A DNA stretch of 64,000 nt. Origin: Natrarchaeobaculum aegyptiacum (lineage in GTDB: Archaea > Halobacteriota > Halobacteria > Halobacteriales > Natrialbaceae). The translations under genes and the position numbers were made by a program. Shown here piece by piece: positions 19,681 through 45,366 of this stretch (position 1 is its first letter; every line of letters starts with the position of its first letter). The notes under the pieces are model-generated. The model saw only the letters and a program-made list of their open reading frames with translations, did no database searches and was not told where the DNA came from. The stretch lies in assembly GCF_002156705.1 (NCBI RefSeq), contig NZ_CP019893.1, forward strand, positions 3,410,001 through 3,474,000, written 5' to 3'.

Positions 19681-20658
19681 TCAGGATCGCTCCTCCAGTT
19701 CCTCGTTGAGCGCCGGCACGACGTCGTGGAGGTCGCCGATGACCGCGTAATCGGCCTTCTGGATGATCGCTGCCTCGGGATCGGTGTTGATCGCGAGGAT
19801 GTTCTCTGCACCCTTACAGCCAACCATGTGCTGGATGGCGCCGCTGATCCCGCAGGCGATGTAGATATCGGGGCTGATCTTCGCGCCGGTCTGGCCGATC
19901 TGGTCGTCGTGGGGACGCCAGCCCTCGTTGACCGCGGCGCGGGAGGCACCGACGGTTCCGTCGAGCAGGTCGGCCAGCGTCTCGAGCTGGTCGTAATCGT
20001 CCGGGTTACCGACTCCACGGCCGCCGCCGACCACGACCCGGGCCTCACCGAGGGCGATTCCCTCCTCGTCGGACGTCTCGACCCGATCGAGCTGGACGGC
20101 GAAGGCTGTGTCGGGAAGCGACGGCGAGAACTCGCTGACCGCCGGCTCGACAGCGGCGTCGGCTTCTTCCACGGGATATTCGTGTTCCGCGGCAGTCACG
20201 AGCGTCGGCTCGCCCTCGAGACGGGCGTGTTCGATCAGGCTCCCACCCCAGCGGTTGCGCTCGAGTTCGTACGCACCGTTGTCGACGTCGACCGCGGTAC
20301 AGTTCGTCGCCATCGGCGCGTCGAGGGTTGCACCGGCGTGGGCGAGCACCTCGTGGCCGCGGTCTGTCGACGGGCCAGTGACGGTCCCAGCGTCGAGGTC
20401 GGCGGCGAGCTGGGCGATGCTCTCGCCCCACGCCTGCGGGGCGTAGCCCTCGCCGTCGAGTCGATCGTGGACGACGTGGTGGACCTCCTCGACACCGTAG
20501 GGTCCGAGCTCGTCCGCCAGCGCGCCGCCTTCAGCGCCGAGGACGGCCGCCTCGAGCGGCTCGCCCGTCCCGGTTGCAATCTCTCGTGCCATGGTCAGGC
20601 TCTCGAGGGAGAGTTCGTCCGGAACGCCGCTCTCGTGTTCGACGAACGAGAGGATCAC
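19681..20658 (-). CDS. etfA: Electron transfer flavoprotein, alpha subunit
   Basis: The alpha subunit binds the redox FAD of ETF and passes electrons from flavoprotein dehydrogenases to the membrane. The 325-residue protein has the C-terminal FAD domain with PDIYIACGISGAIQHMVG, KGAENILAINTDPEA and ADYAVIGDLHDVVPAL, all textbook ETF-alpha signatures. Its GTG start at 20658 overlaps the end of etfB by 4 bases, and a GGAGGTGGA stretch lies just upstream inside etfB. Transcription order is dehydrogenase, etfB, etfA, so this ETF probably serves the dimethylglycine-dehydrogenase-like enzyme encoded first. Confidence 0.96.
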   Translation of the reverse strand: MILSFVEHESGVPDELSLESLTMAREIATGTGEPLEAAVLGAEGGALADELGPYGVEEVHHVVHDRLDGEGYAPQAWGESIAQLAADLDAGTVTGPSTDRGHEVLAHAGATLDAPMATNCTAVDVDNGAYELERNRWGGSLIEHARLEGEPTLVTAAEHEYPVEEADAAVEPAVSEFSPSLPDTAFAVQLDRVETSDEEGIALGEARVVVGGGRGVGNPDDYDQLETLADLLDGTVGASRAAVNEGWRPHDDQIGQTGAKISPDIYIACGISGAIQHMVGCKGAENILAINTDPEAAIIQKADYAVIGDLHDVVPALNEELEERS

Positions 20659-21428
20659 AGGATCTCCACCTCCGACGCGAGGACCTCGACGATGGCTGGC
20701 GCTGCATCGACGCCCTCGCCCAGTATTTCTGCCGGCGAGTCGTCCGTTTCGGGCGCCTCGAGCCTGATCTTCTCGAAGGTTCCGGGTCCGGCTTCGCCGG
20801 TCGGCTCGCGACGGCTAACCTCCTTGCGACGCGCCTGCATCTTGGCGCGCATGGAGGCGTATCTGGGTTCGTTGATCCCCTCTTTGACCGTGACGACGGC
20901 CGGGAGGTCGACCTCGTAGACCTCTTCACCGCCGGAGATCTCTCGTTTCGCGACGGCCACCCCGTCATCGACATCGAGGGACCTGATACCGGTCACGCAG
21001 GGCAGGCCGAGCCGACGCGCGAGGCGGACGCCGACCTGGCAGTTGCCCATGTCGGCCGACTCGTTGCCGAACAACAGGAGATCGAACGCACCGAATTCAT
21101 CCTCGAGATCGTCGATGACGTCGGCGATCGCGTTCGCAGTCGCTCGCGGCCCCCACTCCTCACCGCCGGACTCGAGCAGCGTCGCCTCGTCGGCCTGCAT
21201 GGCGAGTCCGGTCCGAAGCTGTTCGGTTGCCTCCTCGGGGCCGAGCGTGAGGACGTGTGCCGAGCCACCGTGGTCCTCGGCCAGCTGGACAGCCTCTTCG
21301 ATGGCACACTCCTCGTGTGGGCTCATCGTAAATCCGAGGTTACTCGTGTCGATTCGCTGGTTGTCCTCGGTCAGGACGATCTTTGCACCGGTGTTCGGGA
21401 CGCGCTTGACACAGGAGAGTACGTTCAT
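20655..21428 (-). CDS. etfB: Electron transfer flavoprotein, beta subunit
   Basis: This 257-residue ETF-beta has the N-terminal CVKRVPNTGAKI and SPHEECAIEEAVQLAE motifs, the GNESADMGNCQVG loop and a C-terminal TVKEGINEPRYASMRAKMQA region. That last region corresponds to the recognition loop that docks to partner dehydrogenases. It starts two bases after the stop of the upstream FAD-dependent dehydrogenase gene and overlaps etfA by 4 bases, so all three are one operon. No FixA/bifurcating extra features stand out. Confidence 0.96.
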   Translation of the reverse strand: MNVLSCVKRVPNTGAKIVLTEDNQRIDTSNLGFTMSPHEECAIEEAVQLAEDHGGSAHVLTLGPEEATEQLRTGLAMQADEATLLESGGEEWGPRATANAIADVIDDLEDEFGAFDLLLFGNESADMGNCQVGVRLARRLGLPCVTGIRSLDVDDGVAVAKREISGGEEVYEVDLPAVVTVKEGINEPRYASMRAKMQARRKEVSRREPTGEAGPGTFEKIRLEAPETDDSPAEILGEGVDAAPAIVEVLASEVEIL

Positions 21429-21430
21429 GG

Positions 21431-23962
21431 CTAGCTACGGATTCGTTCGTTCTCCGGATCGAACAGCGGTCGGCTGCCGGCGACCTCGACGGTCACCGGG
21501 TACTGTTCACCCATGTACTCGACCTGTAGCTGTTGGCCCTCTTCGGCGTACTCCGGCGGGAGGTAGGCCATCAGCAGGTGTTTGCCCACACTCGGGCCGG
21601 TTCCCGCGCTCGTGACGTAGGATTCGCGCCCCTCCCTGTCGACGATCACGTCGCCCTCGTCGTCGAGGACCGGTTCGTTGCCCAGCATGAACCGGCGCTC
21701 GCCCGACTCGGAGGTGTGATCGTCGACCGAGAGCGTACAGAGCGTGGCGGCGTTGTCCTCCTCGATCGACTCGGCGTAGGCCTCCTTCCCGATGAAGTCG
21801 GCTTCTTTGACGCCGTGGAAGGTGAGCCCGGCTTCGGCAGGGTCGTACTCGAGCTCGAGTTCGTGGCCGAAGAGCCGGTAGCCTTTCTCCATGCGGCCGG
21901 TCGTTCCGTAGACGCCCATGCCGACGGGCCGGATGTCGTACTCCTCGCCGGCCTCGGCGATGGTGTCCCAGAGGCGGCCGCCCGTGGCCGCGGGTGCGTA
22001 AATCTCCCAGCCGAGTTCGCCGACGTAGGAGAGGCGCATCGCCCAGGCGTCGACCTCGCCGACGGTGATCTCCTGGGCGGTATAGGGCGGGAACGCCTCG
22101 TGGGACATATCCTCCTCGGTGACCGAGTCGACGACTGCGCGAGCGTCGGGGCCCCAGACGCCGAGCGTACACAGCGACTCCGACCTGTCGATCAGTTGCA
22201 CGTCGTCGTCGTCCTGAATGTGGCTCGTGAACCACGCGCGGTCGGAGCCCGCCGCAGCACCGCCCGTGATGACGCGATAGTGTTCGGGCCCGAGACGGGC
22301 GATCGTCAGGTCGGAGACGAAGCCGCCGTTTTCCGCGAGGATCGGCGTGTAGACCGTCTTGCCGACGTCGACGTCGGTCCGACCGACGGCCATCTGCTCC
22401 ATGTACTCGACGACGTCCGAGCCGACGAAGTCGAACTTTCCGAAGCCCATGTCGCCGACCATGGCGACGTGGTCGCGCATGTGGAGGTGCTCGCCGAGGA
22501 TGGTCGGCGACCACCACCGCGAGTCCCACTCGTTGCCCCGGAGCAGTCCTGCGAGTTCCTCGTTGTACTTTCGGACGAGGTCCTCGTTGGAGGTGTACCA
22601 CTGCGGCCGTTCCCAGCCGGCGGCTTCGAAGAATCGTGCACCGAGCTCCTCCTGGCGATCGTAGAACGGACTCTGGCGGAGCGGCCGCGAACTCTGCCAC
22701 TGCTCTGCGGGGTGAACGATGCCGTAGATCTTCTGGAAGCCCTCGTGGCCACGGTTCTCGACGAACTCACGGGAGGTGCCGTACTCGTAGAAGCGGTTGA
22801 CGTCCGCCCCGTGGAGGTCGACGTCCGACCAGCCACGCGTCATCCACTGAGCGACCGCCTCGCCGATCGCCGGCGCTTCCTTGATCCAGACCGCGGCACA
22901 CGACCACAGCCCCTCGACGTCCTGCAGCGGGCCCAGCAGCGGCGCGCCGTCCGGCGTCACCGACAGCAGGCCGTCGATCTCGTGACGGACACCGGCCTGC
23001 GGATCGTCGAGCAACTCGGGAACGATCTCGAGGGCGTCTTCCATCGACTGTTCGAAGGCGTCGTCGGTCAGCGGTGGCTGGGTCGGCGACAGCGGTGCCT
23101 CGTCGATCGAGGGCACGTCGTCGACGTCCCAGAGGATCGGCCGGTGCTGGTAGGAGCCGACCTCCAGATCGTTGCCGTGCTGGCGCTCGTACATCTGGGT
23201 GTCCATATCCCGGACGACGGGGAAGGAGATCTCCCCGTCGTAGTCCTCGAAAAAGGAGATCGGCCCGACGCTGACCATCTGGTGGACGGCGGGCGTCAGC
23301 GGGATCTCGACGCCTGCCATCTGTGCAATCTTGGGGCTCCACAGCCCCGCGGCGATGACGACCTCGCCGGCCTCGACGGTTCCGCGGTCGGTTTCGACGG
23401 CCTCGATCTCCCCGCCTTCGACGTGTAGATCGAGCACTTCCGTGTTCGGCGAGAGGGTCAACCCGCCGTCGATCGCATCGTCTGCACGCGCCCGCATGAC
23501 CTCGCCGGCCCGGAGCGGATCACAGGTCCCGGCGCCGGGACTGTAGAACCCACCCTCGACGATGTCGGTGTTGACGTACGGCACCATCTCCTCGATCTCC
23601 TCGACGGAGAGCAGTCGCCCCTCCTCGCCCCATGCCTTGGCCGACTGGACGCGGCGCTCGAGCTCCGCCATCCGCTCGTCGGTCCGGGCGACCTCGATCC
23701 CCCCGCTCTGGGTAAAGGTGTCCATGTCGTCGTACTGCTCGATGGACCGGCTGGTGAGGTGGGTCATCTCCTTCGAGTGTTCGACAGGCATGAGGAAGTT
23801 CGACGCGTGGCCCGTCGAGCCACCGGGGTCCGGGAGCGGCCCCTTGTCCGTCAACAGGATGTCCTCCCGACCCTGCTTTGCGAGGTGGTACGCGAGGCTG
23901 TTCCCGACGATACCCGCGCCGATGATCACTGTCCCCGCACTCGAGGGAATCTCGTCGCTCAT
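21431..23962 (-). CDS. Dimethylglycine/sarcosine dehydrogenase-like FAD enzyme with GcvT domain
   Basis: The 843-residue two-domain protein has an N-terminal DAO-type FAD domain (about 1-370), with GTVIIGAGIVGNSLAYHL and GSTGHASNF. In mammalian DMGDH the histidine of the equivalent GSTWHAAG carries covalent FAD; here it is His52. A short FAO_M-type link follows. The C-terminal half is a GcvT/THF-binding aminomethyltransferase fold (about 430-840), with MVGDMGFGKFDFVG, LSYVGELGWEIYAP and RPVGMGVYGTTGRMEKGYR. Such enzymes oxidatively demethylate dimethylglycine or sarcosine, hand the carbon to THF as 5,10-methylene-THF, and use ETF as acceptor. etfB follows after two bases, matching that chemistry. 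Exact substrate (DMG, sarcosine or another N-methyl amine) is inferred. Confidence 0.88.
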   Translation of the reverse strand: MSDEIPSSAGTVIIGAGIVGNSLAYHLAKQGREDILLTDKGPLPDPGGSTGHASNFLMPVEHSKEMTHLTSRSIEQYDDMDTFTQSGGIEVARTDERMAELERRVQSAKAWGEEGRLLSVEEIEEMVPYVNTDIVEGGFYSPGAGTCDPLRAGEVMRARADDAIDGGLTLSPNTEVLDLHVEGGEIEAVETDRGTVEAGEVVIAAGLWSPKIAQMAGVEIPLTPAVHQMVSVGPISFFEDYDGEISFPVVRDMDTQMYERQHGNDLEVGSYQHRPILWDVDDVPSIDEAPLSPTQPPLTDDAFEQSMEDALEIVPELLDDPQAGVRHEIDGLLSVTPDGAPLLGPLQDVEGLWSCAAVWIKEAPAIGEAVAQWMTRGWSDVDLHGADVNRFYEYGTSREFVENRGHEGFQKIYGIVHPAEQWQSSRPLRQSPFYDRQEELGARFFEAAGWERPQWYTSNEDLVRKYNEELAGLLRGNEWDSRWWSPTILGEHLHMRDHVAMVGDMGFGKFDFVGSDVVEYMEQMAVGRTDVDVGKTVYTPILAENGGFVSDLTIARLGPEHYRVITGGAAAGSDRAWFTSHIQDDDDVQLIDRSESLCTLGVWGPDARAVVDSVTEEDMSHEAFPPYTAQEITVGEVDAWAMRLSYVGELGWEIYAPAATGGRLWDTIAEAGEEYDIRPVGMGVYGTTGRMEKGYRLFGHELELEYDPAEAGLTFHGVKEADFIGKEAYAESIEEDNAATLCTLSVDDHTSESGERRFMLGNEPVLDDEGDVIVDREGRESYVTSAGTGPSVGKHLLMAYLPPEYAEEGQQLQVEYMGEQYPVTVEVAGSRPLFDPENERIRS

Positions 23963-24273: not shown

Positions 24274-26706
24274 CTACTCTGTCGTCCGTTCGGCCGTCGC
24301 GATCGCTGCCGCGTTCGGGGCGACGTCGTGGACGCGGACGACGTCGACGCCCCGTTCTGTGGCAAGCGCCGTTGCGGCCACGGTCGGCGCGAGTCGGTCG
24401 TTTCGTGCCACGCCATCGACCATCGACTTCTGGGAGTGGCCGACCACCAGTCCCGTGCCGAGCGCACGGAACTCCTCGAGTCGATCGAGCAACGCGAAGC
24501 TCTCGGTGGCTGTCTTCCCGAAGCCGAGACCGGGATCGACAAGGAGATTCGAGCGATCGATGCCCGCACGTTCGGCCAGCAGAACGCGTTCGGTGAGGTC
24601 CGCGAGGACGTCGTCGACGACGTCGTCGTAGTCGTACCGGCAGTCGGGATCGACCGGCGCGGAGAGGCTGTGCATGAGCACTGCCGGCACGCCGTGGTCG
24701 GCGACGACGCGGCGCATCGCCTCGTCGCTCAGGCCGGTGACGTCGTTTACCATGTCCGCACCCACCTCGAGGGTGGCCTCGGCCACCGATGGTTTCCGGG
24801 TGTCGATCGAGACCGTCGCCTCGAGAGTGTCGAGGTGCTCGACGACCGGCAGGACGCGCTCCCGTTCGACGTCGGCGGGAACCGGCTCGGCACCCGGTCT
24901 GGTGGATTCGCCGCCGACGTCGACGATGTCCGCACCTGCTGCCACCATCTGCTCGGCGCGGACGAGGGCGTCTTCGATCGCCTCGTACTCACCGCCGTCG
25001 TGGAAACTGTCGGGCGTGACGTTCAGAATGCCCATCACGGCCGTCCCGTCGCCCCACTGGTAGTCCGGTGGGTCGTCGGCCCCGATCCCGAGGGCGGTGG
25101 TCACCTGCTGGGCGAGCTGGCGACCACCGATCGACCGGCCGCGCAGTTTCGCGGTTAGCTCCTTGAAATGGGCAAGCGTTCCGCCGAGGACGACCGCCAC
25201 GTGCTGGTCTGACGCCTCGATACCCGAGACCGCACAGGTGCCGCCCAGTGACTCCATCAGTGTCCGGAGTTCGCGACCTTCCTTCTGACGGACGTGAAAC
25301 CGGAACGTCCGGTGTGGAAGTCGATCGACCCGATCCCGACAGGCCGACGACGGGACGTCGGCCCGATCCAGGGCCGCTCGAGCGCGTTCGACCGTGGGCG
25401 TCCGGACCGGCTGGAGCGTCCGCGTCCACCGGTCGCGGGCTTCAGCGACCACGGCGAGCGACCCCGTCACGAGTACGCAATCGGACGGGTCTGCGGCCCG
25501 GAGGGCCCGGTCGAGCGCGACGAGGACGGACTCGTACTCGCCGGCGTCGACACTCTCGATCTCGCGCTCGGCGACCACCCCGAGCACGTCCGTCGCCTGG
25601 CCTCGTTCGACGTCCGGCGTGGCGAGATAGAGCCGGTCGGGATCGGGCAGTGCACGCACCATTCCCCGGTGGTCTTTCTCCCGTAACGCGCCGAAAACGA
25701 GGGAGAGGTCGTCGTATTCGAACCGCTCTACGACCGTCGCGAGCGTCTCACAGGCCTCCGGGTTGTGTGCGCCGTCGATGACGGTCAGTGGCTCGTCGTC
25801 CATCACTTCGAATCGGCCCGGCCAGTGGACGTTCCGGATTCCCGCCGCGATTTCGTCTTCACCGGGATCGGCGATCTGTCTCGCGAGCGTGGCGGCAATA
25901 CCGGCGTTGATCGCCTGATGAGGACCGAGCAACGGCGTCCGACACTCGACGTTCCAGTCCGGACCGACCAGCGAGAGAGCAGACGATGTCGTCGAAACCA
26001 TTCCGTTCTCCGTCGCGTGGACGTCCGGCGGCGGACCGTCGACAGTCTCGTCGTCCTCGTCGCCGACCGTGAGCACGTCGGTTTCCGCCTCGAGCGTCTC
26101 GAGTGCCGTCCCGCTGGCCCCGGTCACCAGCGGCGCGTCGGTCGGTGCAACCTGTGCCTTGTCGCGGGCGATCTCCTCGATCGTCGACCCGAGGATGTCG
26201 GTGTGCTCGAGACTGACACTCGTGACGGCTGCTGCAGCGGGATCGACCACGCTGGTGGCGTCGTAGCGACCGCCGATACCGACCTCGAGGACGGCGACGT
26301 CGACGTCCTCACGGGCGAAGTGCCACAGCGCCATGACGGTACAGACCTCGAAGAACGTCGGAGCCTCCCCGTCGGCGGTTCGGTCGACGACCGACGGCCA
26401 GATCGTCTCGACGAATCGGACGACCTCTCGTTTCGGGATCTTGCGTCCGTCGACTCTCACGCGCTCTCGTCGGTCGTTCAGGTCAGGAGAGGTGTAACAG
26501 CCGACCCTGTAGCCCGTCTCGCGGAGAATGCGCTCGAGTAGTCGGGCTGTGCTCCCTTTCCCGTTCGAGCCGGCGATCTGGACGGCCGGCAGGTCCTCGT
26601 GGGGGTTACCGAGGGACGAAAGCATCGCTCCGGTCGTCTTCGTCTCCATCTCGGGACGGAGTCGCCGAAGCCGTTCCATCTTGTTTATCGCCTCGTGATA
26701 CTCCAT
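24274..26706 (-). CDS. folCP: Fused dihydrofolate synthase / dihydropteroate synthase (FolC-FolP)
   Basis: This 810-residue fusion makes the folate core. The N-terminal part (about 1-420) is FolC/FPGS-like, with the P-loop IAGSNGKGSTARLLE, FEVCTVMALWHF, GIGGRYDATSVVDP and VIDGAHNPEA. The C-terminal part (about 540-810) is FolP: VMGILNVTPDSFHDGG, DIVDVGGESTRPGAEP, VSIDTRKPSVAEA and NLLVDPGLGFGKT. A linker with an Arg-rich segment joins them. Such fusions are known in haloarchaea (Haloferax FolCP), which unlike most archaea use folate. I prefer the ATG at 26706 (MEYHEAINKMERL); another start five codons earlier (26721) is possible. It is divergent from fhs, 209 bases away. Confidence 0.93.
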   Translation of the reverse strand: MEYHEAINKMERLRRLRPEMETKTTGAMLSSLGNPHEDLPAVQIAGSNGKGSTARLLERILRETGYRVGCYTSPDLNDRRERVRVDGRKIPKREVVRFVETIWPSVVDRTADGEAPTFFEVCTVMALWHFAREDVDVAVLEVGIGGRYDATSVVDPAAAAVTSVSLEHTDILGSTIEEIARDKAQVAPTDAPLVTGASGTALETLEAETDVLTVGDEDDETVDGPPPDVHATENGMVSTTSSALSLVGPDWNVECRTPLLGPHQAINAGIAATLARQIADPGEDEIAAGIRNVHWPGRFEVMDDEPLTVIDGAHNPEACETLATVVERFEYDDLSLVFGALREKDHRGMVRALPDPDRLYLATPDVERGQATDVLGVVAEREIESVDAGEYESVLVALDRALRAADPSDCVLVTGSLAVVAEARDRWTRTLQPVRTPTVERARAALDRADVPSSACRDRVDRLPHRTFRFHVRQKEGRELRTLMESLGGTCAVSGIEASDQHVAVVLGGTLAHFKELTAKLRGRSIGGRQLAQQVTTALGIGADDPPDYQWGDGTAVMGILNVTPDSFHDGGEYEAIEDALVRAEQMVAAGADIVDVGGESTRPGAEPVPADVERERVLPVVEHLDTLEATVSIDTRKPSVAEATLEVGADMVNDVTGLSDEAMRRVVADHGVPAVLMHSLSAPVDPDCRYDYDDVVDDVLADLTERVLLAERAGIDRSNLLVDPGLGFGKTATESFALLDRLEEFRALGTGLVVGHSQKSMVDGVARNDRLAPTVAATALATERGVDVVRVHDVAPNAAAIATAERTTE

Positions 26707-26914
26707 GACAGAACGGTTCACACGCCAGCCAATAAAGCTCGTGACAGGTGGTACCGATCCACAAGTCGTAGGGAGCGTTACAGGTCTTGTCGAGAGGTGA
26801 CGAATAGGGTCACGGCCCGGGCAACACGCACCGCGCTACCACGACAAACTCGTCGTATCCGGAAACCTATGGGTGGCTTCAACACTTATGTCGGGACCGA
26901 AGAAAGGCTTCCAC

Positions 26915-28630
26915 ATGAGCTCAGACGAGGGCGAGCAGTCGATACCGTCAGACTACGAGATCGCACAGTCCGTAACCACCAGCCACATCACCGACGTCGT
27001 CGAGCCGTACGGTCTCGAGCAAGAGGACCTCCAGTTGATGGGCGAACGGAAAGCGAAAGTCGAACTCGAGGCGATCGAACGGCTCCGCGAGGAACGTGAT
27101 GCAGACGGGAAAACCATCCTCGTGACCGGGATGACGCCGACGCCGCTGGGCGAGGGGAAGACGGTGACGACGGTCGGCCTCGGACAGGCGCTGAACCAGC
27201 TCGAGAAGGATGCACTGGTCGCGATCCGAGAGCCGTCGCTCGGCCCTGTCTTCGGCGTCAAGGGTGGGGCAGCCGGTGGCGGCCACTCGCAGGTGCTCCC
27301 GATGGAGGACATCAACCTCCACTTCACCGGCGATCTCCACGCACTGACCTCGGCGCACAACCTCATCGCGACGATGCTGGACAACCACATCAAACAGGGC
27401 AACGGCCTCGACATCGCGGTCAACTGGGTCAACTGGCCGCGTGCGATCGACATGAACGATCGCGTTCTCCGCGAGACCGTCGTCGGACTTGGCGGCGACG
27501 TGACCGGCGTTCCCCGCGAGGACGGGTTCATCCTGACGGCGGCCTCCGAACTGATGGCCGTCCTCTGTCTCGCCGATGGGATCGAGGACCTCAAGGAACG
27601 CATCGCACGGATCATCGTCGCCTACGACGAGGACGGCGATCCGATCACCGTCGACGACATCGGCGCGACCGACGCCGCCGCGATCCTCCTGAAAGACGCC
27701 CTGAAACCGAACGTCGTCCAGACGATCGAGGGGACGCCGGCGTTCGTCCACGGCGGCCCGTTCGCGAACATCGCCCACGGCACCAACTCCCTGATCGCTG
27801 ACGAGGTCGCCTCACATCTCTCGGAGTATCTCGTCACCGAGGCTGGCTTCGGCTCGGACCTTGGGGCCGAGAAGTTCATGGACATCGTCTCCCGGTTCGG
27901 TGACGTCGAACCCGATGCCGTCGCCATCGTCGCTTCCGTCCGCGCGCTGAAATACCACGGCAAAGAGATGTGGCCGCCCGACGTCGACGCCCTCGAGGAC
28001 GAAGACGTCGACGCGGTCTACGACGGATTCGAGAACCTCGAAAAACACGTCAGGAACCTCCAGCAGTTCGGCGTTCCGGTCGTCGTCGCCATCAACCGGT
28101 TCCCACAGGACACCGACGCAGAGATCGAGGCCGTCATCGAGCAGTGCGCGGACGAACTCGACGTGCCAGCTGCGGAGTCGACGGTCTTCGCCGACGGCGG
28201 CGAAGGGGGTCTCGAACTCGCCGAACACCTCGTCGAGGCCGCCGAGGCCGAGTCGGCGTTCGAACCGCTGTACGACCTCGACGTCTCGATCGAGGAGAAG
28301 ATCGAGACCGTCGCGACCGAGATCTACGGTGCCGACGGCGTCGAGTTCCACAGCGACGCCAAAGACGACATCGAACGACTCACCAATCTCGGCTTCGACG
28401 ACGTCCCGATCTGTATCTCCAAGACATTCCACTCCCTGAGCGACGAAGCCAGCCGCAAGGGGGTCCCCGAGGACTGGACGCTCGAGGTAAACGAGATTTA
28501 CCCCTCCGCAGGGGCCGGGTTCCTCGTGGTGTTGACCGCAGACGTCCTCACGCTGCCCGGGCTGCCGTCGGAGCCGGCCGCCGCCGACATGGAACTGCAC
28601 GCCGACAGCAGCATCTCCGGACTGTTCTAG
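26915..28630 (+). CDS. fhs: Formate-tetrahydrofolate ligase
   Basis: This ligase reversibly joins formate, THF and ATP to 10-formyl-THF. The 571-residue protein has the extended P-loop TPTPLGEGKTVTTVGLGQAL. It also has the family motifs REPSLGPVFGVKGGAAGGG, DIAVNWVNWPRAIDMNDR and TSAHNLIATMLDNH. The C-terminus reads YPSAGAGFLVVLTADVLTLPGLP. The ATG at 26915 (MSSDEGEQSIPSDYEIA) fits family N-termini; the frame is also open from 26873. Fhs is mainly bacterial, and its presence in haloarchaea reflects folate use and probable transfer. With FolD and formate dehydrogenase nearby it can run backwards, releasing formate and making ATP from methyl-derived C1 units. Confidence 0.96.
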   Translation: MSSDEGEQSIPSDYEIAQSVTTSHITDVVEPYGLEQEDLQLMGERKAKVELEAIERLREERDADGKTILVTGMTPTPLGEGKTVTTVGLGQALNQLEKDALVAIREPSLGPVFGVKGGAAGGGHSQVLPMEDINLHFTGDLHALTSAHNLIATMLDNHIKQGNGLDIAVNWVNWPRAIDMNDRVLRETVVGLGGDVTGVPREDGFILTAASELMAVLCLADGIEDLKERIARIIVAYDEDGDPITVDDIGATDAAAILLKDALKPNVVQTIEGTPAFVHGGPFANIAHGTNSLIADEVASHLSEYLVTEAGFGSDLGAEKFMDIVSRFGDVEPDAVAIVASVRALKYHGKEMWPPDVDALEDEDVDAVYDGFENLEKHVRNLQQFGVPVVVAINRFPQDTDAEIEAVIEQCADELDVPAAESTVFADGGEGGLELAEHLVEAAEAESAFEPLYDLDVSIEEKIETVATEIYGADGVEFHSDAKDDIERLTNLGFDDVPICISKTFHSLSDEASRKGVPEDWTLEVNEIYPSAGAGFLVVLTADVLTLPGLPSEPAAADMELHADSSISGLF

Positions 28631-28659
28631 GTCTACTCGAGCGGCGCCGGAATCGAGGC

Positions 28660-35902: not shown

Positions 35903-35949
35903 AGACACGCACAATACCTATAAGTCGGATCGTCGACGTGGTGTGTGAC

Positions 35950-36105: not shown

Positions 36106-36238
36106 TGGGGACTGATGGACGCCTATCGAGATCGTCTGCGCGCCCCGGTGATCGATACCGACTGTCCGCACCAGTGCGTGCTACTCTGTCCCAAGATATA
36201 TGATACCGTCTTTCGAATGGTCTGCTAGGGCAACGGTC

Positions 36239-36854: not shown

Positions 36855-38654
36855 TCAGTCGCTCACGTCGACGTCGGTAACCCTGTCGTCTGTCGATCGC
36901 ACCTCCGTCACGAGTTCGCGGCTCTCCGTCGTGACGACGACCTCGTCGCTTCCCTCCAGATCTTCGATCAGTTCGTTGAACTCGTCGGACTCGAGGATCT
37001 CGTACTCTCGCTGAAGCCCCTGCATCACGGCGTAGATCATGAACAGCAAGATCACCGCGAACGGGAGGCCGCTGGCGATTGCGGCGGCCTGCAGTGCCTC
37101 GACGGCCGCGTCACCCCCGGCAACTAGCAGTGCGGCGGCGACGAGTCCCTCGGAGGCCGCCCAGAAGACCCGACCGCTCACCGGCGTCTCGTGTTTTCCG
37201 CCGGTGCTCAGGTGCTCGAGGACGAGCGAGCCCGAGTCAGAGGAGGTCACGAAGAACGTCGTGACGAGGACGATCGCGATCGCCGACAGGATCACTGTTC
37301 CCGGCATGAGGTCGAACATCGCGAACATCGCGAGTTCTTCGCCGACCTCGAACATCGGACCGCTGATCGCGCCCTCCGTCGCCCCGTTCAGTTCGAAGTT
37401 CAGGGCGGTGGCGCCCATCGCAGCGAACCAGGCGAACGAGAACAGGACGGGGATCAGGAGCACGCCGCCGACGAACTCCCGGATCGTCCGCCCCTTGGAG
37501 ATACGGGCGATGAACATCCCGACGAACGGCGACCAGGAGATCCACCAGGCCCAGTAGAACACCGTCCAGTCGACGAGGAACGCGCCTTCCCCTTCACCAC
37601 CGGGCCCGTAGAACTCCGAACCCTGGAAGTAGTGGGAGTCGAACGTGTTTCCGAAGAACGAGAGTTCGAAGAAGTTGCCGACGTAGGCGCCGATTCCCTG
37701 TGGGAGCGCACCGAGGATGAACAGCGTCGGGCCGAGTATGAACACCGACGCCAGAAGCAGCATCATCAGCGTGAGGTTCAGGTTGCTGAGCCGTCGGATG
37801 CCCTTGTCGAGGCCGAGGTAAACCGAGATGATCGCCAGGCCCGTGACGACCGCGATGATCCCGACGGCCACCCAGGTCGAGTCCGGTACGGCGGGGAAAG
37901 CACCGACCTCGTCGCCGACGAACGTCAGGCCAGCGTTGATCTGTAACGCCCCGAGGCCGAGTGACGTCACGAGGCCGAACAGCGTCGCGAAAACGGTGAA
38001 GATGTCGATGACGTGTCCCGGCCAGCCGTAGATTCTGTCGCCCAGCACCGGGTAGAAGACCGAGCGGAACGTCAGTGGCAGCCCGCGGTTGTACGAGAAG
38101 AACGCGAGCCCGAGCGCGACCAGCGCGTAGATCGCCCACGGGTGAAAGCCCCAGTGGAACAGCGACACCGCCAACGCAACCTCTCCGGCACCTTCGGTCC
38201 CCGCTTCGGCCCCCAGGTGCGGGTCGAAGAGGTGGTAGACCGGTTCGGCGACGCCGAAGAACATGAGACCGATTCCCATCCCGGCACTGAACAACATCGC
38301 GATCCAGGAGATATCGCTGAACTCTTTCTCCCCGTCGACGCCACCGATCCGGATCGCACCGTACTTGCTGATGGCGAGATAGATCATGAAAATGATGAAG
38401 ATATTCGCCGCCAGGATGAACAACCAGTCGAAGTAGTCCGATACTCCGACTCGGACGTCCTGATAGAGCTCACCCGCCTGATCCGGAAACGCGAGCGAGA
38501 GGATAATAAACAGGACGATCAGCCCCCCTGCGATGAGGAATACGGGTGGATTGATGTCGAACCCGAATCCCTGCCAGTTGTTGTCGCCCGGTTCTCGATC
38601 GGTCTCCGCGTGAAACAGTTCTTCCTGTATTCCGCGCTTGTCTTTATCTGTCAT
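36855..38654 (-). CDS. BCCT family betaine-type transporter
   Basis: This 599-residue, twelve-helix transporter has the canonical BetP-like TM3 glycine stretch (SAGMGIGLMFFGVAEP) and the TM8 tryptophan motif FYWAWWISWSPFVGMFIARI. Both are associated with Na+-coupled glycine-betaine transport. The C-terminal tail after the last helix (about 60 residues, ESDEFNELIEDLEGSDE) is acidic rather than basic as in BetP, so its osmosensing mode may differ. The nearest convincing TATA element is about 200 bases upstream of the ATG, which implies a long leader. It is convergent with the second uspA. Confidence 0.94.
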   Translation of the reverse strand: MTDKDKRGIQEELFHAETDREPGDNNWQGFGFDINPPVFLIAGGLIVLFIILSLAFPDQAGELYQDVRVGVSDYFDWLFILAANIFIIFMIYLAISKYGAIRIGGVDGEKEFSDISWIAMLFSAGMGIGLMFFGVAEPVYHLFDPHLGAEAGTEGAGEVALAVSLFHWGFHPWAIYALVALGLAFFSYNRGLPLTFRSVFYPVLGDRIYGWPGHVIDIFTVFATLFGLVTSLGLGALQINAGLTFVGDEVGAFPAVPDSTWVAVGIIAVVTGLAIISVYLGLDKGIRRLSNLNLTLMMLLLASVFILGPTLFILGALPQGIGAYVGNFFELSFFGNTFDSHYFQGSEFYGPGGEGEGAFLVDWTVFYWAWWISWSPFVGMFIARISKGRTIREFVGGVLLIPVLFSFAWFAAMGATALNFELNGATEGAISGPMFEVGEELAMFAMFDLMPGTVILSAIAIVLVTTFFVTSSDSGSLVLEHLSTGGKHETPVSGRVFWAASEGLVAAALLVAGGDAAVEALQAAAIASGLPFAVILLFMIYAVMQGLQREYEILESDEFNELIEDLEGSDEVVVTTESRELVTEVRSTDDRVTDVDVSD

Positions 38655-39526: not shown

Positions 39527-40759
39527 TCAGTTCACGACAGTGGCGTCGTAGCCCCCGCTCTCGATCGCGTCGACGATCTGGGCCGCGTGTTCCGCCCCAC
39601 TCGTTTCGACCTGAAAGATGAGATATGCATCGCCGACGTCGAGTTCTTCCAGGGCACGGTCGTGGCGGACGGTCTGGATATTGGCACCGTATTCGGCGAT
39701 GATCCCGGAGATGTCCGCCATCTTTCCGGGCCGGTCGTCGATACGGACGCGCACTCGCAGGATCTGCTTGCGCTGGGCCAGTGCGTGGACGAGTATCGTC
39801 CGGAGCATCGTCATGTCGAGATTGCCACCACACAGAAGCGCCACGACGCGTTCACCGTCGACCTCGAGTGCGTCGCTTCGCATCGCTGCGACCGCGGCTG
39901 CACCGGCTCCTTCGACGAGCTGTTTCGACCGTTCGAGCAACACGAGAACGGCCCGGGCGATCTCGTCGTTGGTTACCGTCACGATCTCGTCGACGTGATG
40001 ATCCATGATCGAGAGCGTTAGCTCGGAGATGCCGCCGGTCGCGATACCGTCGGCGATGGTGTCGACCGACTCGAGCGTCTGGGGGGCTCCCTTGTCGAGA
40101 CTGTCCAGTACCGTTTCGGCACCCGCTGCCTGGACGCCGACGACCCGGGTCTCCGGGCTCCGATCGGCGAACGCGGTCGCGATTCCCGAAATGAGGCCAC
40201 CGCCCCCGATCGGAACGACGACGGTGTCGACCTCGGGGACGTCCTCGCACATCTCGAGACCCAGGGTACCCTGGCCGGCGACGATCGCCGGGTCGTCGAA
40301 GGCGTGGACGAACTCGACGCCGGGTTCACCGACCAGGTCACGTGCGTATTCGGTGGCTTCCTGAAAGTCGTGCCCGACGAGTTCGACCGTCCCACCGTAG
40401 CCACGCGTGGCGTCGATCTTCGTCTGTGGAGCCGTCTTTGGCATGACGATCGTCGACTCGACGCCGAGGGTCGTCGCCGCGAGGGCGACACCCTGGGCGT
40501 GGTTACCCGCGCTCGCCGCGACGACCCGGTCGAGGTCGCGCGCCTCGAGACAGCGATCGATCTTGTTGTACGCGCCGCGGGTCTTGAACGATCCCGTCCA
40601 CTGGAGGTGCTCGCACTTGAGCACGACGCGGTCCGCACCGGTCATTGCCTCGAGCGACGTACTCCGATCGAACGGCGTCCGTTTGACGACGCCACACTCC
40701 TCGACCCGGTCCCGTGCAGCCTCGATGTCGTCGATCGTCACGGGAGGATCCTGTGTCAT
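39527..40759 (-). CDS. Serine/threonine ammonia-lyase with C-terminal ACT domain
   Basis: The 410-residue PLP enzyme deaminates threonine to 2-oxobutyrate and often serine to pyruvate. It has the PLP-lysine motif TGSFKTRGAYNK, SAGNHAQGVALAA, the glycine loop VPIGGGGLISG and a C-terminal ACT domain (about 330-405, LRVRVRIDDRPGKMADISG). The single ACT domain fits short, allosteric TdcB/IlvA types. The start at the ATG at 40759 is fixed by a perfect GGAGGTGA (40767-40774) seven bases upstream. It is 94 bases downstream of folD on the same strand, which links amino-acid deamination to C1 metabolism. RidA at 31197 would clear its enamine by-product. Confidence 0.92.
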   Translation of the reverse strand: MTQDPPVTIDDIEAARDRVEECGVVKRTPFDRSTSLEAMTGADRVVLKCEHLQWTGSFKTRGAYNKIDRCLEARDLDRVVAASAGNHAQGVALAATTLGVESTIVMPKTAPQTKIDATRGYGGTVELVGHDFQEATEYARDLVGEPGVEFVHAFDDPAIVAGQGTLGLEMCEDVPEVDTVVVPIGGGGLISGIATAFADRSPETRVVGVQAAGAETVLDSLDKGAPQTLESVDTIADGIATGGISELTLSIMDHHVDEIVTVTNDEIARAVLVLLERSKQLVEGAGAAAVAAMRSDALEVDGERVVALLCGGNLDMTMLRTILVHALAQRKQILRVRVRIDDRPGKMADISGIIAEYGANIQTVRHDRALEELDVGDAYLIFQVETSGAEHAAQIVDAIESGGYDATVVN

Positions 40760-40766
40760 CGCAGGG

Positions 40767-40774
40767 TCACCTCC
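40767..40774 (-). promoter_or_regulatory. Strong Shine-Dalgarno site deciding the ammonia-lyase start
   Basis: The minus-strand sequence ggaggtga is a full complement of the 16S rRNA tail and sits seven bases before the ATG at 40759. It rules out the GTG at 40795 as start. Such strong sites are uncommon upstream of first genes in this window and suggest a leadered transcript, possibly read through from folD. Confidence 0.75.
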
Positions 40775-40853
40775 GGCCGATCCCGGAACGCCCACCGTCG
40801 CGTGTGTGTCGAAACAGAACTTATCAGTTGTGTTAAATTAATTGGCAACATTG

Positions 40854-41747
40854 TCAGGGAAGGTCGACCGGAACGCCCGTCTGGATGCTCGCGGCTGCGA
40901 CCGTATTGTACAGCAACATCGCGATGGTCATCGGGCCGACGCCACCGGGAACGGGCGTGATAACGCTCGCCTTCTCGCGTGCGCTGTCGAACTCGACGTC
41001 ACCGACCAGTTCGTACCCCTTCTCAGTCTCTGCATCAATTCGGTTGACGCCGACGTCGATCACGACCGCGCCCGCACCGATCATCGAGCCGTCGACGAGT
41101 TCGGGGACGCCGGCCGCGGCGACGACGATATCGGCCTGTCGGGTCTTCTCGGCGAGCGCATTCGTTCGCGAGTGACAGACCGTCACCGTCGCGTTCCCGC
41201 CGGGCGCTTTCTGTATCAGCAGGTTCGCTATCGGCTTGCCGACGATCTCCGAGCGTCCGACGATCACCACGTCCGAACCATCGGTGTCGACGTCTGCAGC
41301 CTCCAGTAGTTTCTGGATGCCGTGGGGCGTACAGGGTTTGTACCGCGGGTCGCCCGCGACGAGCCGACCGACGTTCTCGGGATGGAACCCGTCGACGTCC
41401 TTGAGCGGGTCGACGTGTCGGAGGGCGTTCGTTCCATCGACGTGGTCCGGCACCGGCATCTGGAGGAGGATGCCGTGGACTGTTGGATCCCCGTCGAGCT
41501 CGATGACGGTCTCGAGCAGGTCGTCAGCGGACGCCTCGGGCTCGAGTTTGCGGTGGATCCCCTCGATGCCGAGTTCGTCACAGGCTCTCTGTTTCATCGA
41601 GACGTAGGTCTCGCTGGCCGGATCGTCGCTCATCAACACCGTGGCCAGCCCCGGTGTCACGCCTTCGTCCTCGAGAGCTGTCACACAGTTCTGGACGTCA
41701 TCTCGTATCCGGTCGGCTACCGCGTTGCCGTCGATGACGTGGGTCAC
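40854..41747 (-). CDS. folD: Methylene-THF dehydrogenase / methenyl-THF cyclohydrolase
   Basis: FolD interconverts 5,10-methylene-THF and 10-formyl-THF. The 297-residue protein has the catalytic lysine motif YVSMKQRACDELGI, the ILLQMPVPDHVD segment, KPCTPHGIQKLLE, the nucleotide-binding GRSEIVGKPIANLL and the closing TPVPGGVGPMTIAMLL. I take the GTG at 41747 (M-THVIDGNAVADRIRDD), which gives the family's length. A GTG four codons earlier is also possible; the frame continues upstream without conserved content. It is divergent from the GcvT-like gene and probably co-transcribed with the ammonia-lyase. Confidence 0.95.
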   Translation of the reverse strand: MTHVIDGNAVADRIRDDVQNCVTALEDEGVTPGLATVLMSDDPASETYVSMKQRACDELGIEGIHRKLEPEASADDLLETVIELDGDPTVHGILLQMPVPDHVDGTNALRHVDPLKDVDGFHPENVGRLVAGDPRYKPCTPHGIQKLLEAADVDTDGSDVVIVGRSEIVGKPIANLLIQKAPGGNATVTVCHSRTNALAEKTRQADIVVAAAGVPELVDGSMIGAGAVVIDVGVNRIDAETEKGYELVGDVEFDSAREKASVITPVPGGVGPMTIAMLLYNTVAAASIQTGVPVDLP

Positions 41748-42095
41748 GGCAATACACACCTGTTGCGTTCGTCGTTTCGGATCATTCTCTATCACTATTT
41801 CGTCGCCCGGTCGCCGTGGCAGTCGTCGCCACTGCCGGGTGACGTCAGAATGAGTCTGTGGAGTGTTATCAACCCACGGTCTCCCGGCCTGTCCCGAGGA
41901 ATTCCGGCCCGGATTCCACAAAATATCTGGTAACTGCCACGTATAGCTCGAGCTCATCTCTCGAGTCGCGCCCCCGAGTACTGTCGCGAGAACGGCTCTC
42001 GAACCCGGCTAGAGGGTCTCTACCCGCAGTTTCCACGAAGGTCGGTTTCCGACCGACTCCCACTTTTATGTAGATCCCCGTTCATCTGAGTGGTA
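41748..42095. promoter_or_regulatory. Divergent intergenic region between folD and the GcvT-like gene
   Basis: These 348 bases hold no supported gene. Toward the plus strand a TATA-like cttttatg (42063-42070) lies about 27 bases before the ATG at 42096, giving a leaderless mRNA. The folD side has no equally clear box. The divergent arrangement would allow one regulator to control both C1 genes, but I see no obvious operator. Confidence 0.5.
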
Positions 42096-43463
42096 ATGTC
42101 TGGTAACGAACCACCACAGACGGAGGAGCATCCAAACTATCCGAGCGTCGACCAGTCTGACCGAACGCTCCCACGGAACCTGCGCCAGTCCGGTGATCCG
42201 GGTATCGAAATGCTCGTTTCGACCCGCATTCGTAAGTCACCGTTTTTCCACAAGTCGTTCGTGGAAAACGGAGCGTGGCGAGCGACGGTCTACAATCGGA
42301 TCTACCACCCTCGCGGGATGCTCGAACCCGAGGAGGGTGGGATGATGGAGGAGTACGACGCGCTGGTCAACCACGTCACGCTGTGGGACGTCGCGGTCGA
42401 ACGCCAGATCCGTGTCAAAGGCCCCGACGCCGAGGCGCTGACGAACTACGTCATCACCCGCGACGCGACCGAGATCGAACCGATGCACGGGAAGTACGTC
42501 ATCCTCTGTAACGAGGATGGTGGTATCCTCAACGATCCCGTCCTGTTGCGACCGGGCGAAGACGAGTTCTGGTTCTCGATCTCGGACTCGACGCTGATGC
42601 AGTGGCTACAGGGCGTCAACGTCGGGAAGAACTTCGACGTCGAGATCGACGAGATCGACGTCGCACCGGTCCAGATCCAGGGCCCGAAGTCGATCGACGT
42701 CATGATCGACCTCGTCGGCGAGGAGGTCGACGAGATCCCCTACTACGGGCTGATGGAAGCCGAGATCGACGGCGTCCCCGTCCTCGTCAGCCAGACCGGG
42801 TTCTCCGGCGAGAAAGGGTTCGAGATCTACGTCCGCGAGGCGAGTAAAAACGCCGAACGCGTCTGGGACCCCGCGATCGAGTCCGTTCGCGACCACGGCG
42901 GGATGCAGGTCGCACCGGCACACCACCGCCGCATCGCCGCTGGCATCCTCTCGTGGGGCCAGGACATGGACCACGAGACCTCGCCGTTCCAGGTCAACCT
43001 CGGCTACCAGGTGCCCGACGACAAGACGTCCGACTACGTCGGCAAGGAGGAACTCGAGCGCCAGAAAGCACAGATCGACGAGGGCGAGTACCCGTTCGTC
43101 CACAAGATGGTCGGGCTCAAATTGGCGGGTGAGCCGATCCGGGATTACGCGCCGGACTTCTGGCTCATCTCCGACCCCGACACCGGCGAGGAGTGTGGTT
43201 ACGTCACCTCACCGTGGTACAACCCCGAACTCGAGACGAATCTCGCACTCGGGTTCGTGCCAGCCGAGAAACTCGACGGCGACCCGATGGACGTCTACGA
43301 CGGCGACATCGAAACGGAGTTCGAGGTCCACCTGCCCGACGAGTACGCCGAAGAGCCGGGCGAACCCGTCTACGCCAAGGTCTCGGAGGTGCCGTTCAAG
43401 CCGTCGGTCAACCCGAGCGCCCGCGAGCAGGCCAAGTTAAACGCCAGAGAGGACGCCGAGTAA
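42096..43463 (+). CDS. GcvT/DmdA-family THF-dependent demethylase
   Basis: The 455-residue protein is a stand-alone GcvT fold with an N-terminal extension. Motifs include VTLWDVAVERQIRVKGPDA, GGILNDPVLLRP, VAPVQIQGPKS, TGFSGEKGFEIYV and AGILSWGQDMDHETSPF. The VWDVxCERQ-like and GGMLNDP-like stretches recall DMSP demethylase DmdA and related THF methyltransferases rather than the glycine-cleavage T protein. No gcvH or gcvP is nearby. The next gene is a methylene-THF reductase homologue, which would be needed to oxidise the 5-methyl-THF that a DmdA-type reaction produces. The methyl donor (DMSP, glycine betaine or another) cannot be read from sequence. GTG at 42090 is a less likely start. Confidence 0.8.
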   Translation: MSGNEPPQTEEHPNYPSVDQSDRTLPRNLRQSGDPGIEMLVSTRIRKSPFFHKSFVENGAWRATVYNRIYHPRGMLEPEEGGMMEEYDALVNHVTLWDVAVERQIRVKGPDAEALTNYVITRDATEIEPMHGKYVILCNEDGGILNDPVLLRPGEDEFWFSISDSTLMQWLQGVNVGKNFDVEIDEIDVAPVQIQGPKSIDVMIDLVGEEVDEIPYYGLMEAEIDGVPVLVSQTGFSGEKGFEIYVREASKNAERVWDPAIESVRDHGGMQVAPAHHRRIAAGILSWGQDMDHETSPFQVNLGYQVPDDKTSDYVGKEELERQKAQIDEGEYPFVHKMVGLKLAGEPIRDYAPDFWLISDPDTGEECGYVTSPWYNPELETNLALGFVPAEKLDGDPMDVYDGDIETEFEVHLPDEYAEEPGEPVYAKVSEVPFKPSVNPSAREQAKLNAREDAE

Positions 43464-43619: not shown

Positions 43620-43626
43620 CCCGATA

Positions 43627-44493
43627 ATGTCGTCCGAAATCGAGACGACCCCGACCGCAGAGGGACTTCTCGAACTGCTCGAGGAGCCACGCTTCGAGCT
43701 AATGCCGTTCGAGAGCATGGACGAGCAACTCGAACACCTCCCCGAGGGCGCGGAGGTCGCTATCACGACCTCGCCGACGCTCGGACTCGAGTCGACGATC
43801 GAGTGGACCGAACGCGCCACCGATCGCGGGTTCGAGGTCGTTCCTCACGTCGCAGCACGCTACGTCCGTGACGTAGATCACCTGAAAGACGTCGCGGCAC
43901 GGCTCACCGACGCCGGAGTCTCCGACATCTTCGTTCCCGGCGGCGACCGCGAGGAGCCAGCCGGCGAGTTCACGTCGGCCTACGACCTGCTGTCGACGCT
44001 CGAGGACCTCGATTACGAGTTCGAGGACGTCGGCATCACCGGCTATCCGGAGGGTCACGACTTTCTCGACGACGACGTGCTGGCCGAGGCGATGGCGAAG
44101 AAAGAGCCCTACGCCACCTATATCGTGACTCAGCTGTGTTACGACCCCGAGGCGATCATCGACTGGACCGACGAGATCCGCGCTCGTGACGTCGACCTGC
44201 CGGTCGAAGTCGGCATCCCCGGCGTCATGAAGTACCAGCGGTTGCTGCAGATCTCGCGGAAGGTCGGCGTCGGCGACTCGATCCGGTTCCTCCAGAAGAC
44301 CAGTGGCGTCCTCGGGTTCCTTCGAGAACTGGTCGGCTCACGTGGAACCTACGTCCCCGACGAACTGGTCGAGGGACTCGCACCATACGCGACCGATCCA
44401 CACTACAACATTCGCGGAGTGCACGTCTACGCGTTCAACCAGGTTCCGGACCTCGAGTCGTGGCGTTCGGAGACGCTGACCCAACACCGGTAA
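43627..44493 (+). CDS. Methylenetetrahydrofolate reductase family protein
   Basis: The 288-residue TIM-barrel protein is of the MetF family, which interconverts 5-methyl-THF and 5,10-methylene-THF. Recognisable parts are PHVAARYVRD, LTDAGVSDIFVPGGDREEP, DVGITGYPEGHDFL and YIVTQLCYDPEAII, then a C-terminal YNIRGVHVYAFNQV that matches the end of MetF barrels. It lies after the GcvT/DmdA-like gene on the same strand. That pairing suggests methyl groups enter as 5-methyl-THF and are oxidised here. In the opposite direction it would serve methionine synthesis. A ggaggtg Shine-Dalgarno fixes the start. Confidence 0.85.
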   Translation: MSSEIETTPTAEGLLELLEEPRFELMPFESMDEQLEHLPEGAEVAITTSPTLGLESTIEWTERATDRGFEVVPHVAARYVRDVDHLKDVAARLTDAGVSDIFVPGGDREEPAGEFTSAYDLLSTLEDLDYEFEDVGITGYPEGHDFLDDDVLAEAMAKKEPYATYIVTQLCYDPEAIIDWTDEIRARDVDLPVEVGIPGVMKYQRLLQISRKVGVGDSIRFLQKTSGVLGFLRELVGSRGTYVPDELVEGLAPYATDPHYNIRGVHVYAFNQVPDLESWRSETLTQHR

Positions 44494-44502
44494 CGAACCG
44501 AG

Positions 44503-45366
44503 TCAGTCGTTGGATTTCCGTTTTTGTTCGGGGTGATCGGCGACGAACACGCTCGTGTTCGGCGGGACGTCTTCTGTCACCCAAGAGTTCGCGCCGATGC
44601 TGACGTGGTCGCCGACGGTGATCGCCCCCAGTACCTTCGTCCCGGCACCGATCACGACGTGGTCGCCGATGTCGGGATGGCGTTTGTACCCCTTCTTCAG
44701 CATCTGCTCGTCGTCTTCTTCCTCCTCGAAGTGAAGTGCGCCGAGGGTCACGTCCTGATAGAGCCGGACCCAGTCGCCGATCGTCGCGGTCTCGCCGACG
44801 ACGACGCCCGTCCCGTGATCGATGAAAAAGTACTGCCCGATCTCCGCCCCTGGATGGATGTCGATCCCCGTCACCGTCTTCGCGTACTCGGTGAGTTCCC
44901 TCGCGTACTCGGGTTCGCCTGCCTCGTACAGCACGTGAGCAATCCGCTGGATCATGATCGCCTGAAAGCCCGGATACGACCGGATCACCTCGAGGTATGA
45001 CGTCGCGGCGGGGTCGCCCTTGTACGCGGCCTCGACGTCTTTTTTCAGCGCCGCTCGAAGCTCGGGGAGTCGATCGAGGACGTCGTCGACGACACTGGTC
45101 GGATCGTCCTCGGCGTAGGGCTCGATCCCCCGGTAGTAGAGCCCACCGAGCTCCGACAGTCGTTCCTGGATCGCCGATTCGCGCTCGAGCAACTCGGGTG
45201 CGTTCCAGCAGCGAGGAAAGAGGAGCCGTCTGAGCAGGCTCATCTCCGTGCGACGACGTTCGACGGTCGGGAACTCCATCACCCCTCCCGTCGGAAACGG
45301 GTGTGCATCCGACTCGTACGCCTCACACAGTCGGCCGACTCCGTCACCAGTGTAACTGTATCCCAT
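44503..45366 (-). CDS. cysE: Serine O-acetyltransferase
   Basis: CysE acetylates serine to O-acetylserine for cysteine synthesis. The 287-residue protein has a helical N-terminal domain (about 40-150). A left-handed beta-helix of hexapeptide repeats follows, with GIDIHPGAEIGQYFFIDHG, TGVVVGETATIGDW and HPDIGDHVVIGAGTKVLG. The DHG histidine is catalytic in the family. It converges on the methylene-THF reductase gene, only 9 bases apart. As a serine-consuming enzyme beside C1/serine metabolism it fits the locus. Start uncertain: an ATG at 45279 is an alternative to 45366. Confidence 0.93.
   Translation of the reverse strand: MGYSYTGDGVGRLCEAYESDAHPFPTGGVMEFPTVERRRTEMSLLRRLLFPRCWNAPELLERESAIQERLSELGGLYYRGIEPYAEDDPTSVVDDVLDRLPELRAALKKDVEAAYKGDPAATSYLEVIRSYPGFQAIMIQRIAHVLYEAGEPEYARELTEYAKTVTGIDIHPGAEIGQYFFIDHGTGVVVGETATIGDWVRLYQDVTLGALHFEEEEDDEQMLKKGYKRHPDIGDHVVIGAGTKVLGAITVGDHVSIGANSWVTEDVPPNTSVFVADHPEQKRKSND

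Follow-up and report, generated by a model that had tools for sequence, protein, structure and literature searches.

A haloarchaeal gene island with a DmdA/GcvT-like protein, a candidate for folate-dependent demethylation of glycine betaine

In brines, glycine betaine is among the major compatible solutes. Three kinds of enzyme are known to take off its first methyl: Rieske monooxygenases, BHMT and corrinoid methyltransferases. In this study, we analyzed a gene island of ~26 kb in Natrarchaeobaculum aegyptiacum, a haloarchaeon whose genome is a single contig (NZ_CP019893.1, 3.93 Mb, 99.84% complete). The island lies in a stretch of 64,000 nucleotides (positions 3,410,001 to 3,474,000), hereafter the window, and includes genes for a DmdA/GcvT-like protein (DmdL), a divergent protein of the methylenetetrahydrofolate reductase (MTHFR) family (MetFL) and a dimethylglycine dehydrogenase-like protein (DMGDH). 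We propose, with a probability that we put slightly below 60%, that the island forms a unit for glycine betaine catabolism with a folate-dependent first step, in which DmdL stands in place of the Rieske oxygenase GbcA.

In the Rieske route, GbcA works with DMGDH, sarcosine oxidase and GlyA, and haloarchaeal clusters that contain a Rieske gene share DMGDH, GlyA, IlvA and BCCT transporters. The island differs in that a folate methyltransferase-like protein, accompanied by MetFL, would take the first step rather than an O2-dependent oxygenase. DmdA, the demethylase of dimethylsulfoniopropionate (DMSP), belongs like DmdL to the GcvT fold family, and a methyl transfer to tetrahydrofolate (THF), as in DmdA, is proposed here for DmdL; DmdL is unlike it in carrying a Phe for a Trp, and in having neighbours suggestive of betaine rather than DMSP catabolism. 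The betaine and one-carbon (C1) oxidation of SAR11 (PMC3160333) also combines DMGDH, MetF, FolD, Fhs and formate dehydrogenase (FDH) in THF-linked methyl oxidation; in the parts of that paper covered here its first step is BHMT, whereas the present genome has no PF02574 protein. In haloarchaea, Anderson et al. 2011 (PMC3102087) reported dimethylglycine oxidase-like genes near BCCT carriers and suggested betaine use, but a first-step enzyme is absent from the passages concerned, as are DmdL, MetF and Rieske partners. Growth on betaine through sequential demethylation is described for haloalkaliphilic Mono Lake isolates in the covered part of PMC4325475. Within the sections covered of the open-licence literature (including PMC7487153, PMC3160333, PMC3832224, PMC4325475, PMC3102087, PMC2329653 and PMC5395565), we found neither a GcvT-type betaine demethylase nor a haloarchaeal GbcA route, nor any description of how haloarchaea remove the first methyl of betaine.

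We examined how DmdL and DMGDH are distributed in a family sample of 121 genomes and a class sample of 155 genomes, which have members in common. In the family sample, orthologues were called above identity thresholds of our own choice, at least 79% for DmdL (paralogues lie at 67-69%) and at least 84% for DMGDH, with a clear gap down to the next match at 42%. Each gene was found in 18/121 genomes, and the two sets are identical (p ~8e-22 under genome independence, which does not hold). As the genomes are related to one another, this and the other p-value given here are not literal. Genera g3, g6, g8, g14 and g29 each include genomes that have the pair and others that lack it, with DmdL always in agreement with window-type DMGDH; G059, from the genus of the window, lacks both, in a genome merely 55% complete. 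In the class sample (E<=1e-100 for both proteins), DmdL was detected in 30 genomes and DMGDH in 44. All 30 DmdL genomes have DMGDH, including 26/26 outside the family of the window, and none of the 111 genomes without DMGDH has DmdL.

MetFL (E<=1e-30) is also present in all 18 DmdL genomes of the family sample, plus G035, G043, G064 and G075, and so is the island-type Fhs, called at an identity of at least 73%, a threshold without a clean gap (G081 at 77% and G045 at 71% are both outside the 18 genomes). Within 25 kb on one contig, DMGDH was linked to DmdL in 15 of these 18 genomes, to Fhs in 16 and to MetFL in 17, and DmdL to MetFL in 15. In G002 and G030, DmdL lies elsewhere in the genome, and DMGDH, Fhs, FDH, BCCT and MetFL are still together; co-occurrence is thus independent of neighbourhood. 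The initial annotation had named co-localisation across Halobacteria genomes as a test of the island, with co-occurrence no better than chance as a refutation; DmdL, DMGDH, MetFL and Fhs co-occur and cluster far beyond chance. The island is real and is inherited as a unit.

We next looked at the genomes that have DMGDH without DmdL. A Rieske protein (PF00848) was found in 26/27 of them in the family sample (limit E 1e-3), compared with 8/76 genomes without DMGDH and 8/18 DmdL genomes. In the class sample, where the limit was E 1e-10, the proportions were 13/14, 2/111 and 12/30, respectively. Pooled over both samples, PF00848 is present in 35/37 DMGDH genomes without DmdL against 17/44 with it (Fisher p 9e-8, relatedness ignored). 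Among the 11 DmdL genomes of the family sample whose only DMGDH is of window type, a single one has a PF00848 protein, the genome of the window itself. This protein (at 520153), its only one, is an aromatic dioxygenase of naphthalene/HcaE type and is not GbcA-like. The complete genome has no PF02574 protein (BHMT-type, S-methyl_trans; control positive in 9/14), and no PF06253 protein (MttB/MtgB-type, MTTB; control positive in 1/14). In 31/34 family genomes, the Rieske gene lies at most 10 kb from a DMGDH gene of another clade.

Nine such Rieske clusters were retrieved (L136-L144). They contain DMGDH (8), IlvA (8), BCCT (7), GlyA (5) and a DAO oxidase (5), and none has MetFL. This absence fits the chemistry, because methyl-THF arises only if the methyl is passed to THF. 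One of the DAO oxidases is probably sarcosine-oxidase-like, since its score exceeds the NF008425 cut-off (N-methyltryptophan oxidase) and soxA_mon ranks second. BCCT, IlvA, GlyA and DMGDH are neighbours common to both first-step genes, DmdL and Rieske. Betaine is favoured as the substrate of DmdL because of the constant linkage to DMGDH, the frequent linkage to GlyA, IlvA and BCCT, and the exchange with a GbcA-like enzyme. The initial annotation had listed glycine betaine, dimethylglycine, sarcosine and DMSP as candidate compounds; the Rieske exchange, together with the linkage to glyA and to DMGDH, often in tandem, points to glycine betaine.

The nature of the Rieske proteins bears on another possibility, in which DmdL takes the first methyl from another methylated quaternary amine (proline betaine, carnitine or a choline-derived compound) and DMGDH acts on a tertiary amine related to it. 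Two cluster members were scanned, and both have GbcA (NF058607) as their best NCBIfam model, with scores of 141 and 110 bits, far below the cut-off of 670, and the best PDB match of one member is carnitine monooxygenase (E 1e-41), with 4qup, which we take to be an entry of stachydrine-demethylase type, close behind. The BCCT proteins of the island likewise score below the cut-off of the betaine model. We nevertheless hold this explanation to be unlikely: the preferred NCBIfam model is still GbcA, the GlyA and IlvA genes of many clusters agree with glycine being the product, and DMGDH is nearest to dimethylglycine oxidase.

Neighbourhoods were then compared across named DmdL loci from many Halobacteria genera. 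Of 480 confirmed relatives, the best 80 were retained (71-93% identity), a choice that skews the set towards close relatives, and many of the contigs are short. Neighbours were counted by tblastn with named queries and by a simple gene-calling script; the tblastn counts are preferred because the script is poor on AT-rich genomes. By tblastn, the 80 loci contained MetFL (62), DMGDH (37), IlvA (34), FolD (29), BCCT (27), serine hydroxymethyltransferase (SHMT, GlyA; 17), Fhs (16), FDH (7), FolCP (7) and Rieske (3). Gene calls added BAT-type regulators (41), PabB (13), PabA (10), CysE (8) and dihydrofolate reductase (DHFR; 7). Outside Natrialbaceae, a recurrent order is BAT - (DHFR) - DmdL - (GlyA) - MetFL - 390-aa protein - AspA/AstE - DMGDH - DMGDH - IlvA. 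The window had been said to lack glyA, and no SHMT was found among its 18 scanned proteins; in other genera the cluster itself contains the gene, which in the present genome lies at 700268. The genome-wide search for GbcA, BHMT and GlyA returned this single SHMT, with no GbcA-like Rieske and no PF02574 protein.

FolCP, DHFR, PabA and PabB recur close to DmdL, though at a minority of the loci, and could also indicate folate biosynthesis and C1 housekeeping, in which Fhs would work forward, loading formate onto THF, and DmdL would be a general aminomethyltransferase-like enzyme. Housekeeping genes should be near-universal, yet DmdL is restricted to 18/121 and 30/155 genomes, always with DMGDH, and the linkage to BCCT, electron-transfer flavoprotein (ETF) and DMGDH genes would be left unexplained, so that we regard this reading as very improbable.

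Two other genes recur in these clusters. A conserved 390-aa protein without Pfam match (L068 17901-19073), possibly a regulator, was found by tblastn in 38/80 DmdL loci and 4/9 Rieske clusters. An AspA/AstE-type metallohydrolase (PF24827; L120 15894-16919 and homologues) recurs between MetFL and DMGDH.

The sequence of DmdL was compared with those of its nearest relatives. Its best PDB match is DmdA of Pelagibacter ubique (3tfh, E 5e-51), followed by GcvT (1woo, E 5e-47), and its best NCBIfam model is the DMSP demethylase PRK12486. It retains the DmdA-like N-terminal motif and the Asp, Glu and Tyr positions of the THF side. The main rival reading is therefore that it is a DMSP demethylase, BCCT transporters importing both DMSP and betaine, DmdL and MetFL dealing with the methyl of DMSP, DMGDH acting separately on dimethylglycine, and the genes being kept together by a shared THF pool; the CysE gene that adjoins MetFL in Natrialbaceae islands could hint at sulfur. 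However, the PRK12486 score is 234.1 bits for a cut-off of 410, and pairwise identity is 27.6% to DmdA, compared with 32.5% to a GcvT fragment, over a shorter length. All 81 DmdL copies carry Phe238 where DmdA 3tfh has a Trp. According to the covered part of PMC7487153, a Trp (W171) is key for DMSP in DmdA, and a Phe occurs in another homologue clade; we equated W171 with W197 of 3tfh by how far it is spaced from the conserved Glu and Tyr. An AlphaFold model of DmdL on a shallow and narrow alignment (A1) had a mean pLDDT of 45.2 and was set aside, so that the pocket comparison is by alignment alone. Moreover, 28 families recur near DmdL, and among the 23 identified there is no acyl-CoA ligase or dehydrogenase. 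A DMSP demethylase would also leave the strict tie of DmdL to DMGDH unexplained. Taken together, this makes DMSP a rather unlikely substrate.

That DmdL is a plain GcvT was also considered and set aside; the strongest GCV_T match of the genome is the protein at 2958018. A fourth GCV_T protein (2147291) passed the cut-off only for a YgfZ/CAF17-like model and was left aside. In one plasmid record, the DmdL family bears only the label of a glycine-cleavage T-like protein. Five of the 18 DmdL genomes in the family sample hold a further copy at 67-69% identity, a paralogue. The paralogue (~68%) is in tandem with DmdL in L049 (8203-11418), and stands without other queries nearby in L052-L054; it may have another substrate. 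A more distant relative, 38.7% identical to DmdL, is encoded on plasmid pP51_d of Phaeobacter inhibens (L153 12007-16093). It has the DMSP-type Trp and adjoins genes for an enoyl-CoA hydratase and an acyl-CoA synthetase, as expected for a DMSP route.

The window DMGDH (21431) matches N,N-dimethylglycine oxidase 1pj5 over its whole length (E 1.5e-145), and consists of a FAD-DAO part and a GcvT part, as in dimethylglycine oxidases and dehydrogenases (PDB 1pj5, 5l46). Aligned with 1pj5, it keeps both the HA-motif His and the folate-domain Asp. It differs from these enzymes by its own downstream ETF genes, and for this reason it is probably a dehydrogenase, with ETF as its probable electron acceptor. 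EtfB-EtfA follow the window-type DMGDH in the window, in L048/L084 (one contig), L149, L150, L107 and L077; in L106 the ETF genes are there in part, and in L101 the stretch stops at DMGDH. ETF genes were found in 5/37 named DMGDH loci, those of L080 not adjoining DMGDH. The window has one DMGDH only, and tandem copies are frequent in other clusters. A first drawing of the DMGDH family, with one wrong-frame row, showed a window clade without Rieske loci and three other clades mixing both kinds. In the rebuilt tree of 52 sequences (38 beside DmdL, 11 beside Rieske and 3 beside both), the Rieske label takes three changes, and three are forced by starred branches.

MetFL belongs to PF02219 (47.4 bits, cut-off 24), and is well below the cut-off of the NCBIfam MTHFR equivalog TIGR00676 (60.5 bits vs 293.7). 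Its nearest PDB entry is 7xg9 (E 4e-38), which we take to be the MetF that partners LigM, an O-demethylase, in Sphingobium SYK-6; a literature search yielded nothing on it. Outside the window, the genome has a second Fhs-like copy (G000:C1:952931-954268), 63% identical over residues 14-452.

From these families, we infer the following pathway. Betaine would be imported by the BCCT transporters, and DmdL would transfer one of its methyls to THF in an O2-independent reaction, with dimethylglycine and 5-methyl-THF as products. MetFL would oxidise 5-methyl-THF to methylene-THF. DMGDH with its own ETF would convert dimethylglycine, and probably sarcosine too, to glycine, with formation of methylene-THF. 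GlyA, encoded away from the island in this genome, and IlvA could lead from glycine through serine to pyruvate, and FolD, Fhs presumably running in reverse, and FDH could take the C1 units to CO2 with recovery of ATP. Anaerobes move a methyl of betaine to THF through corrinoid enzymes, so that the transfer should be energetically feasible. We consider the balance to be just in favour of DmdL being a GcvT-fold glycine betaine:THF N-methyltransferase, O2-independent and cobalamin-free, which is exchanged with Rieske GbcA-like oxygenases in similar haloarchaeal clusters and would send all three methyls into one folate-linked energy path. If this is true, a THF-dependent enzyme would be a further solution to the first step, in which the methyl is kept as methyl-THF and not released as formaldehyde. 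ATP recovery by Fhs would become possible, O2, which is scarce in brine, would not be needed, and the conserved haloarchaeal DmdL family would have a function.

Several observations weigh against this proposal. Both the best NCBIfam match and the best PDB match of DmdL are of DMSP-demethylase type. In 3/80 named loci (L066 6535-10001; L099 3110-12934; L134 10001-19805), DmdL and a GbcA-like Rieske gene share a cluster, and the two kinds of first step may thus coexist; the 17/44 DmdL genomes counted above have some PF00848 protein. Conversely, two DMGDH genomes, G062 in the family sample and G160 in the class sample, have neither DmdL nor PF00848. The Rieske-DMGDH cluster itself could act on another quaternary amine, given its low GbcA scores and its carnitine monooxygenase match. 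No MetFL was within reach in 18/80 named DmdL loci, and in two loci of Haloquadratum walsbyi (L092, L112) DmdL has no other query within 10 kb. The covered part of PMC3102087 also cites no growth enhancement of H. walsbyi by betaine.

The genes of the island are listed in Table 1. Families were assigned by Pfam and NCBIfam profile scans of window proteins (18 scanned), and nearest structures by PDB matches. The gene families, places and strands that had been proposed for 19681-45366 were borne out. The linked demethylation and C1-oxidation island of the initial annotation holds for its core, the linkage of DmdL, DMGDH, MetFL and Fhs; some of the other genes listed are linked more loosely. Among 14 family islands (L035-L048, at most ~20 kb fetched per island), the fetched stretches contained BCCT 2 in 13, FolD in 12, IlvA in 7, FDH in 6 and Fhs in 4.

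Table 1. Genes of the island, in window coordinates
Feature	Position	Strand	Basis or remark
ETF alpha subunit	19681..20658	-	PF00766/PF01012
ETF beta subunit	20655..21428	-	PF01012
DMGDH, dimethylglycine dehydrogenase-like FAD/GcvT protein	21431..23962	-	DAO, FAO_M, GCV_T, GCV_T_C; PDB 1pj5
FolC-DHPS fusion (FolCP), folate supply, loosely linked	24274..26721	-	Pfam/NCBIfam
Formate-THF ligase Fhs	26915..28630 (start also called 26873)	+	PF01268, NF010030 over cut-off
Formate dehydrogenase alpha subunit (FDH)	28967..31105 (start also called 28742)	+	TIGR01591 732.7 bits, cut-off 666.25
RidA, loosely linked	31197..31577	-	PF01042
BCCT transporter 1	31677..33560	-	PF02028; glycine betaine BCCT best NCBIfam model, below cut-off
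Genes between BCCT 1 and BCCT 2: ion channel/TrkA_N protein, two Usp proteins	33828..36661	.	conserved in many Natrialbaceae islands
BCCT transporter 2	36855..38654	-	PF02028; glycine betaine BCCT best NCBIfam model, below cut-off
Threonine/serine ammonia-lyase, IlvA type	39527..40795	-	TIGR01127 over cut-off
FolD	40854..41957	-	PF00763/PF02882; NF010764 over cut-off
DmdL, DmdA/GcvT-like protein	42096..43463 (start also called 42090)	+	PF01571; PDB 3tfh; PRK12486 below cut-off
MetFL, divergent MTHFR-family protein	43627..44493 (start also called 43585)	+	PF02219; PDB 7xg9
Serine O-acetyltransferase CysE, adjoins MetFL in Natrialbaceae islands	44503..45366	-	Hexapep/SATase_N

Beside the island, at 18262-19662 of the window, lies a gene for a protein matching the C-terminal parts of alanyl-tRNA synthetase and AlaX-type editing proteins (tRNA_SAD, DHHA1).

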